Shown piece by piece: positions 3,265 through 19,179 of a stretch of DNA of 46,346 nt. The notes below the pieces were generated by a model that saw only the letters and a list, made by a program, of their open reading frames with translations, was not told the origin of the DNA and did no database searches. The translations under genes were made by a program, and so were the position numbers. The DNA comes from Candidatus Kuenenia stuttgartensis (GTDB lineage Bacteria > Planctomycetota > UBA11346): contig CAMCAC010000003.1 of NCBI GenBank assembly GCA_945872305.1, forward strand, positions 1 through 46,346, read 5' to 3'. The stretch's first letter is position 1. The number at the start of each line of letters is the position of its first letter.

Positions 3265-3401
3265 TCGGGTTCCGGGTTTCGGGTTTCGGGTTTCGGGAGG
3301 GCTGCTGGTGAACTCAGGGGGATTTCGGAGGGATGGACTCCAGGGGCTCCAGACCCACGGATCCACCGGTCCCGAAACCCGGAACCCGGAACCCGGAACC
3401 C
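3265..3401. repeat. Heptamer-built inverted repeat with G-quadruplex motifs (copy 1)
   Basis: The left arm (3267-3297) is four heptamers of type GGGTT(T/C)C plus a final GGG. The right arm (3371-3401) is its inverted counterpart. The 31-base arms match at 29 positions, and the two differences are T opposite G, so RNA from the plus strand could pair along the whole arm by wobble. A loop of 73 bases separates them and has no open frame. GGG runs at 3267, 3274, 3281, 3288 and 3295, each separated by 4 bases, fit the canonical quadruplex pattern. The minus strand has the same five-run pattern at 3371-3401. The element fills the space from the pcrA start codon to 7 bases before the panC stop. Confidence 0.9.
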
Positions 3402-9074: not shown

Positions 9075-9213
9075 CAGGTTGCGGGCCGGGCGGGGCCCGG
9101 CGTTGCGGGCGGGCGCTGCGCGCCACGCGTTGCGGGTTCCGGGCCGCCAGATGTGCAGCGGCAGGAAACGACGAAAACCGCAACGCGAGCGCAGCGAGCC
9201 CGCAACCCGATGC
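9075..9213. repeat. GC-rich inverted repeat between convergent genes (divergent copy 2)
   Basis: The gap between the HD gene stop and the ndk stop is filled by an imperfect inverted repeat. The left arm lies at about 9101-9143 and the right arm at about 9173-9209. Shared blocks, read on one strand, are GTTGCGGGC, GCTGCGC and CGCGTTGCGG in the same order. The extra GGTTGCGGGC at 9078-9087 duplicates the first block. The GGGTTGC and GGGTTCC words also occur in the heptamer repeats at 3265 and 18504, so it may be a degraded or chimeric relative. It holds no open frame. Confidence 0.65.
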
Positions 9214-17510: not shown

Positions 17511-18503
17511 ATGGGCCACGACCACGACCACGCGCACGGACCCGCCGGCCTCGCCGGGGATCCCCGGGTCCGCCGGGCGGCGATGATCAGCCTGGCGGTG
17601 GCCGTCGCCATCCTCGCCATCAAGGTGTGTGCCTGGCTGATCACCGGCTCCGCCACGGTCCTGTCGGATGCCCTGGAATCGGTCATCCATGTGGCCGCAA
17701 CCCTGTTCATGGCCTGGTGCGCGCGGATCTCGGCGGCGCCGCCGGACGCCGAGCACCCCTTCGGCCACGGCCGTATCGAGTTCCTGTCCGCGGGCTTCGA
17801 GGGCGGTGCGGTGGGACTCGCCGCCCTGGGCATCGCCGCGGTGGCCATCGAGGCGTGGTGGTCCGGGCGGGCGCCGGGCAATCTCGACTGGGGCCTGGCC
17901 CTGGTCGCCGGGGCGGCGGCGGTGAACGCCGGCCTGGGCTGGTGGCTGCTGCGCACCGGTCGGGCCACCGGCTCGCCGCTGCTCATCGCCGACGGCCATC
18001 ATGTCCTCTCCGACGTGTGGACGAGCCTGGGCGTGCTCGCCGGCGTCGGAACCATGCTGTTCATCAATGATCCCCTCATGCGCGGCTGGTGCGATGCGGG
18101 GCTGGCCCTGGTGCTCGCGGGCTATGTGTTCTGGGTCGCGGTGCGGCTGGTGCGCGGCGCCGTGGCGGGACTGCTGGACGAGGCCGATCCGCAGCTCCTC
18201 GACCGGGCGGTGGCCGCGCTCAATGCGGTGCGCGAGGACGCCTGGCGGGATGTGCACGGCCTGCGCCTGCGCCGGGACGGGGCGAACATCCTGGGCGAAC
18301 TGCATCTGGTGGTGCCCGAGGGCTGGACCGTGGCCCAGGCCCACGACGCCAGCGAACGGGTCGAGCGCGCCATCCTCGACCAGATCGGCCAGCGCGGCAC
18401 CATCATGGTCCACCTCGACCACGACGGCTCCCACGAATACCGCTACATCCCCTCTGATCAGGGCCCGATCACCGTGGAAAGCGCCACGCGGATGGAGGCG
18501 TGA
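17511..18503 (+). CDS. Cation diffusion facilitator (metal/proton antiporter)
   Basis: A 330-residue inner-membrane exporter of divalent metals such as Zn, Fe, Co or Mn. The N-terminus is His/Asp-rich (MGHDHDHAHG), a likely metal-collecting arm. Six membrane segments are visible. The metal site is indicated by SATVLSDALESVIHVAATLF in segment II and ADGHHVLSDVWTSLG (H-x3-D) in segment V. DAEHPFGHGRIEFLSAG is the conserved loop after segment II. The C-terminal cytoplasmic domain (about 215-320) has the usual ferredoxin-like pattern and ends with several His residues (MVHLDHDGSHEY). Metal preference cannot be read from sequence. The stop codon directly abuts the inverted repeat at 18504. Confidence 0.93.
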   Translation: MGHDHDHAHGPAGLAGDPRVRRAAMISLAVAVAILAIKVCAWLITGSATVLSDALESVIHVAATLFMAWCARISAAPPDAEHPFGHGRIEFLSAGFEGGAVGLAALGIAAVAIEAWWSGRAPGNLDWGLALVAGAAAVNAGLGWWLLRTGRATGSPLLIADGHHVLSDVWTSLGVLAGVGTMLFINDPLMRGWCDAGLALVLAGYVFWVAVRLVRGAVAGLLDEADPQLLDRAVAALNAVREDAWRDVHGLRLRRDGANILGELHLVVPEGWTVAQAHDASERVERAILDQIGQRGTIMVHLDHDGSHEYRYIPSDQGPITVESATRMEA

Positions 18504-18660
18504 TGGTTTCGGGTTTCGGGTTCCGGGTTGCGAGAAAGGTCGCCGCTGAAATACGACGGGGAGGGTGATGCTGGATGCGCGTCCGCCGTGCTCCGAAGAG
18601 GATTGGGTTCCTGTCACACCGAGGATCGACCTCCCGAAACCCGAAACCCGAGACCCGCAA
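18504..18660. repeat. Heptamer-built inverted repeat with G-quadruplex motif (copy 3)
   Basis: The left arm (18505-18534) is a run of heptamers GGGTTTC, GGGTTCC and GGGTTGC. The right arm (18633-18660) is the inverted counterpart, reading GTTGC, GGGTCTC, GGGTTTC, GGGTTTC, GGG on the minus strand. The minus strand has four GGG runs spaced by 4 bases (18633-18656), a canonical quadruplex pattern; the plus-strand arm has three full runs and one GG. The loop of about 98 bases is unlike that of copy 1 (3265-3401) and has no open frame. The element occupies the whole gap between the CDF stop codon and the stop codon of the convergent gene. Confidence 0.88.
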
Positions 18661-19179
18661 CTACCCCTGATTCCCCGCCATGGCGGCGACCTCGTCGCGG
18701 CGGGACCGCCAGGCGGCGGGGTCGGCGGCGGCGTCGATGGTCCGCACCGCCCGGCCGTCGTGGATGGGGGCTTCGGGCTGCTCGTCCTGGGCCTGGACGC
18801 GGCCGTCGGGATGGATGGCGAAACTGTCCGGATACCAACGACGGTGGCCGCTGGGGTCGAAGGCCTGGGGGCCCACCACCCGGGCGCCCCGGGCGGCGAT
18901 GTGGACGACCCCGTCGGCGTCGCGCCAGGCGAGTGCCGGATAGGCGACCCGGTAGGCCTCCTGACCCTCAACGATCTCGCTGGTCGATACCCAGGCGGCC
19001 TGGGTCCGGCCGAGGCCCGGCGCGACCACGATCCAGGTGCGATGGTCCCCGCCCCACTCGACCTGCCAGGCCGCCGCCGGCGCGGCGGTCACGGGCCGCG
19101 ACGATCCCGGACCTGCGGGCGTCGGGGCATCGCCGGCCGCCACCACGGCCGCGAGGACCAGGAGGGGCAGCGGCCGCAT
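18661..19179 (-). CDS. Small exported protein downstream of rpoN
   Basis: A 172-residue protein with a signal peptide (MRPLPLLVLAAVVAAGDA, cleavage near residue 16). The mature part has several strand-like stretches with Trp (WQVEWGGDHRTWIVVAPGLG, AYRVAYPALAWRDADGVVHI, HRRWYPDSFAIHPDGRVQAQ). It ends in a charged helix (DPAAWRSRRDEVAAMAGNQG). No known family is recognised. Its ATG at 19179 overlaps the rpoN stop (ATGA), so it is translated from the same message. The right arm of the inverted repeat runs up to its TAG stop. A periplasmic or surface location is inferred from the leader. Confidence 0.75.
   Translation of the reverse strand: MRPLPLLVLAAVVAAGDAPTPAGPGSSRPVTAAPAAAWQVEWGGDHRTWIVVAPGLGRTQAAWVSTSEIVEGQEAYRVAYPALAWRDADGVVHIAARGARVVGPQAFDPSGHRRWYPDSFAIHPDGRVQAQDEQPEAPIHDGRAVRTIDAAADPAAWRSRRDEVAAMAGNQG

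Follow-up and report, generated by a model that had tools for sequence, protein, structure and literature searches.

What is the inverted repeat that lies at 18504-18663 of the window, the latter being the whole stretch of 46,346 nucleotides of Candidatus Kuenenia stuttgartensis DNA (genome G000) analyzed here? The repeat occupies the entire gap between a gene encoding a CDF-family cation-efflux protein (17511-18503, plus strand, TGA stop codon at 18501-18503) and a hypothetical gene in convergent orientation, located downstream of rpoN (18661-19179, minus strand). Its left arm (18504-18535, plus strand) begins directly after the TGA and consists of the heptamers TGGTTTC, GGGTTTC, GGGTTCC and GGGTTGC (18504-18531), followed by GAGA. 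The right arm (18632-18663, minus strand), read from 18663 to 18632, consists of TAGTTGC, GGGTCTC, GGGTTTC and GGGTTTC, followed by GGGA. Between both arms lies a loop (18536-18631) to which no strand is assigned. The initial annotation had placed the arms in contact with both stop codons. This is indeed the case, and the right arm even includes the TAG of the minus-strand gene (18661-18663) as its outermost bases, such that the element is three bases longer than originally reported.

Taken alone, this element (denoted copy 2) is only just distinguishable from chance as an inverted repeat: its two arms agree at 26 of 32 positions, and in dinucleotide shuffles of the whole window (n = 20) the top-scoring 32-nt inverted pair at a distance of up to 250 nt has 23-25 matches. 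Its status as a repeat is nevertheless certain, because it recurs across the genome. The 14-mer GGGTTNCGGGTTNC, a GGGTTNC dimer, is found 119 times in the 2.9-Mb genome versus 0 times in the reversed control; it occurs 0-6 times per genome in 58 relatives. The window itself contains a second element, copy 1 (3267-3401), in the gap between panC and pcrA. Its arms have 30 matches; the left one (3267-3298, plus strand) lies 2 nt away from the start codon of pcrA, the right one (3370-3401, minus strand) 7 nt away from the stop codon of panC, and a unique loop without assigned strand (3299-3369) separates them. The description of copy 2 as facing arms that share the heptamer set of copy 1 is hence borne out, and extends to the genome as a whole.

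Within this genome, the arm sequence is found at 34 sites. At 22 of these it occurs as pairs, which always face each other, and in every pair the G-rich strand runs from the gene toward the loop on either side. The arm consensus (about 32 nt) consists of KGGTTYC, three units of GGGTTYC and a terminal GGGA. Among 62 candidate arms, 28 correspond perfectly to the consensus and 50 score at least 28/32, with most of the variation at the Y positions and at the outermost base. The loops, with one exception, are not copies of one another or of other genomic sequence beyond chance. The loop of copy 2 is single-copy in the genome and unrelated to the loop of copy 1, as had been surmised. The exceptional loop (L069, 385-488) overlaps another dispersed intergenic repeat (GCAACCCGCAACGCGATGCCCGCAGGGCGAGCCCGCAACGGGC-like), which is also found at 9101-9145 of the window, at 2454-2507 of L066 and at 1486-1540 of L076.

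Whether the elements were acquired can be judged from orthologous gaps, which were located and measured in 22 genomes of the same family. The genes cysW and cysA overlap by 4 nt (ATGA) or are separated by 5 nt in 6 of 6 relatives measured; the distance between nuoD and nuoE is -4 to +2 nt in 12 of 17 relatives, and between panC and pcrA at most 18 nt in 10 of 18. In G000 the same three gaps span about 136-172 nt, almost entirely made up by the element. Many relatives have element-free orthologous gaps that measure just -4 to +18 nt. Judging from this sequence comparison, the complete arm-loop-arm block therefore represents inserted DNA in at least three of the four gaps tested. The fourth gap, accB-accC, is less clear: it measures at least 60 nt in 17 of 19 relatives, and therefore part of it may be old. 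The initial annotation had suggested that absence at the orthologous site would indicate movement, and such absence is found for these other copies. The two genes flanking copy 2 were not found adjacent in relatives in the same-family search, whose query was partly approximate (92% identity of its match in the own genome). Two outcomes had been named as contrary to a spreading element, namely an invariant presence of the same sequence at the same site in relatives, or a lack of arms in all other gaps of the genome; neither was observed.

We note two further observations on gaps. In the rpoD-MFS gap of L067, the loop (2034-2119) opens with a terminator-like hairpin, GCCCCTGGTTCGCCAGGGGC; here the sequence between the arms may be older intergenic DNA and not filler. 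A different family of hairpin-rich repeats, CGAACGCGCCTCCGGCGCTGCCCCC, occupies operon gaps in relatives where heptamer arms are missing, namely L109 and L114 (accB-accC of G017 and G009, respectively) and L127 (nuoD-nuoE of G022). The copies of G017 and G009 align with z = 28.

On the most economical reading, and with a confidence that we put at about one half, copy 2 represents one copy of a lineage-specific, arm-defined, spreading inverted-repeat element, in which the arm would be the part that functions or replicates. Each element pairs two facing arms, each about 31 nt long (in G000 four units of GGGTTYC plus GGGA), with a filler that is specific to its site, and it is the arms that recur and turn over. 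The arms would be propagated by some activity that recognizes or writes them, and new blocks would survive mainly in tight co-directional or convergent gaps, where they interrupt no coding sequence and no divergent promoter. Transcribed into RNA, the block could fold into a long hairpin touching a stop or start codon, and an effect on expression, if any, is probably a consequence and not the origin. The earlier suggestion of a spreading unit under selection for its arms agrees well with dozens of copies, conserved arms and unique loops.

The main rival to a spreading repeat is a functional hairpin, active in both directions, which terminates, protects or insulates transcripts at the borders of genes and whose arms are retained for pairing. 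The placement of the elements is in line with such a role. The median distance between arm and gene is 4 nt, with 30 of 40 ends within 10 nt; genes were called by codon usage and individual starts may err, but pcrA, accC, cysA and others start at or near the profile start. Occupied gaps are co-directional in 16 cases, convergent in 3 and divergent in 1 (background gaps: 75, 20 and 32, respectively), that is, divergent gaps account for 1 of 20 occupied gaps versus 32 of 127 in the background. Likewise, the predicted RNA fold of copy 2 is strong, with z-scores of -3.5 on the plus and -3.8 on the minus strand, and the differing heptamers at one orthologous gap described below suggest a conserved role. 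Against this reading, paired arms show no covariation, being no more similar to each other than arms from different elements (p = 0.74), and copy 2 lacks a U-tract terminator, as no short G+C-rich stem followed by a T-run is found. The elements also lie within the conserved operons accB-accC, cysW-cysA and nuoD-nuoE, where most relatives have no element, and in the accB-accC gap of G018 (L110) both arms, as read by eye, differ in unit length, with a 7-nt unit (GTCCGGG) in the left and an 8-nt unit (GTCCGGTC) in the right arm. A consensus scan of the copy 2 loop detected no promoter-like or terminator-like site, and a comparison of copy 2 with known RNA families gave no assignment and one sub-threshold match, located outside the element. 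We consider a regulatory hairpin possible, with roughly half the weight given to a spreading repeat. The alternative label of an end-of-gene element holds insofar as arms touch stop codons, but start codons are adjoined about as frequently and the elements occur inside conserved operons. The accB-accC gap of G019 (L100) harbors a lone GTCCGGTC arm.

Related genomes make use of the same architecture with other words, in part in the same gaps. In the panC-pcrA gap, the unit is GGRGTCC in G015, GGAGTGC in G020, GTTCTCC in G010 and an octamer, GTCCGGAA, in G022; in the accB-accC gap, it is GAGCTRC in G015, GGGGTCC in G002, G018 and G021, and GAGCTTK in G012; and elements with other heptamers are found between nuoD and nuoE in G010 and G017. 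Some of these assignments were read by eye and fall under the detection limit of the automated pair detector. A gap occupied in both G010 and G017, which are congeners, shows no detectable homology of the loops. Overall, 6 of 60 orthologous gaps are occupied versus a background of 1.7% (p = 5e-4), or 7 of 60 with a looser detector (p = 2e-5), both p-values ignoring the relatedness between genomes. The dialects are unevenly distributed: GGRGTCC dimers occur 299 times in G015, 370 in G002, 196 in G018, 37 in G021 and 27 in G017, and 0-1 times in the remaining 18 genomes, including congeners and G000. A GTYCGG-like core is common to many dialects. We also observe that many contigs of G002 (C6, C14, C15, C18, C25) start at most 25 bases from a GGGGTCC arm; the repeats thus probably break short-read assemblies, so that real copy numbers exceed our counts. 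Beyond the family, metagenome-assembled genomes labelled as Chloroflexi, Acidobacteria, Hydrogenedentota, Blastocatellia and others carry facing GGGTTYC pairs, as does the complete genome of Ca. Desulfobacillus denitrificans; the arms of these pairs often vary more in length.

A word-free search of 1.08 Mb of family DNA, for which some stretches of G015 and G002 had been picked because they contain matches, yielded inverted tandem-arm pairs at periods of 7 (30 pairs), 8 (8 pairs) and 9 (5 pairs), and none at periods 4-6 or 10-12. At period 7, the 30 inverted pairs stand beside 1 direct and 0 mirror pairs. Across dialects, arms most often measure 31 nt (four units and three further bases); by segment measure, arm lengths range from 17 to 38 nt with a median of 31 and cluster at four units. 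Arms begin and finish on the same triplet.

The four-unit rule bears on the proposal that the elements are G-quadruplex regulatory elements, selected for four G-runs per arm. Most arms in G000 have four or five GGG runs and hence match the predicted quadruplex pattern, and the repeats of Xanthomonas and Nostoc form quadruplexes in vitro (PMC4692102). However, arms of 31 nt with the same architecture are built in related genomes from the GGG-free heptamers GAGCTAC, GATGTCC and GTTCGGC. Since arms retain about 31 nt even without GGG, the four-unit rule is not explained by quadruplexes, which are largely refuted as its general cause. In copy 2, moreover, the four GGG runs are complete on the minus strand only, as stated by the initial annotation, and the plus-strand arm lacks them. 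The remark on quadruplexes is thus true of the dialect of G000 but is not general, and we regard selection for quadruplexes as highly improbable.

A third account invokes replication slippage and template switching, in which a heptamer is expanded on the spot and strand switching produces the inverted counterpart, without any mobility. Units within one arm do resemble each other more closely than they resemble units of other arms (p = 0.017 in G000, with a far stronger effect in G015). As this resemblance exceeds chance, local copying of units is, on the sequence evidence, a contributor to arm evolution; the homogenization within arms is equally compatible with local slippage, and arrays of variable length exist in some other genomes. 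Slippage alone accounts poorly for one heptamer that dominates an entire genome and is missing from congeners, for the near-fixed arm length, for the expansion of gaps from about 0 to more than 100 nt including a unique loop, and for arms that resemble their own partner no more than the arms of other elements. We consider it unlikely as an explanation of the elements, and less probable than a regulatory hairpin. Copying may also involve larger units: in L046 (contig C6 of G000, 2517-2735), a single left arm stands opposite three tandem right arms with a 36-nt period, suggesting that arms (28 nt plus about 8) are able to multiply as units within an element. The same 36-nt spacing is found in L051, on the left side.

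If the arms of the spreading repeat are propagated, the question is by which route. Transposition of the whole unit is not supported, because loops are not copied together with the arms, and the element edges show no target-site duplication (flank k-mers are shared as in shuffled pairings, p = 0.62). A derivative of a MITE or DDE transposon is accordingly not supported, there being neither such a duplication nor internal sequence common to the copies. Another candidate is a REPIN-type element with a RAYT tyrosine transposase as its mobilizing enzyme, a design that likewise consists of two facing repeats with variable spacer in gaps; Y1 transposase genes are present in G000. The arms, however, are non-palindromic and lack the GTAG tag, none lies close to the strong Y1 gene of G000, and across G000 and its relatives no mobilizing enzyme was found, in that Y1 counts do not track element counts (27 matches and no Y1 gene in G017; 13 Y1 genes and no matches in G008). 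A REPIN origin is accordingly very doubtful. In L078 (contig C1 of G000, about 750-1500), a repeated segment (translated GTALVMRRHLRQEGSAA and similar) adjoins a Y1 transposase ORF (1486-1938) and is possibly the REP family served by this RAYT-like gene. More speculatively, and with little probability in our judgment, a dedicated species-specific activity might write a fixed 31-nt arm in its own dialect onto the two ends of an intergenic break or junction, the ends being joined via filler; template changes from species to species, with reuse of sites, would then amount to a telomere-like end-capping or marking within a bacterial chromosome.

Two aspects are new: the near-constant arm length across related genomes, including heptamers unable to form quadruplexes, and the species-specific dialects, of which different ones occupy the same operon gaps. 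The question thereby moves away from quadruplexes and becomes what it is that copies or reads an arm of 31 nt with seven-base periodicity, and the comparative sites given here allow such copying or reading to be tested.

Several known systems share features with these elements. Invertible promoters also have inverted repeats flanking a short intergenic segment, but here the same arms are found at dozens of unrelated genes and also in convergent gaps without a promoter to flip. Eukaryotic foldback transposable elements resemble the elements in their inverted arms of short tandem subrepeats and in loops that differ between copies, yet they are much longer and generate target-site duplications, which the elements of G000 lack. 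REP/REPIN elements, associated with RAYT transposases, consist of GTAG- and CGTC-tagged REPs, each of which is a palindrome (PMC3733652). Dispersed intergenic facing pairs, species-specific families and varying spacers are common to both systems. In contrast, the arm consensus of G000 consists of tandem heptamers without internal palindrome or GTAG/CGTC tag, and neither the strong Y1 gene nor the Y1 counts indicate a linkage to a transposase. The heptamer repeats GGGAATC in Xanthomonas and GGGGA(C/T)T in Nostoc, two unrelated groups, were described in 2015 as quadruplex-forming and without an assigned function (Rehm et al. 2015, PMC4692102). They are intergenic, located near stop codons on the coding strand and near start codons on the non-coding strand, and rare between divergent genes; Xanthomonas harbors 70-75 facing inverted heptamer pairs per genome; and the number of units varies widely (2-26), with a preference for four that was linked to G-quadruplexes (PMC4692102). 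The elements of G000 have in common with them the GGG-initial tandem heptamers, the preference for four units, and facing intergenic pairs near ORF ends that are rare in divergent gaps. They differ in the unit (GGGTTYC instead of GGGNATC or GGGGAYT), in a near-fixed arm of about 31 nt ending in GGGA, in relatives where some of the same gaps hold other heptamers, including ones devoid of G-runs, and in an insertion into operon gaps that is evident from comparison. The closest precedent is therefore the paired GGGAATC heptamers of Xanthomonas (Rehm et al. 2015), and the elements of G000 are a variant of that repeat class.
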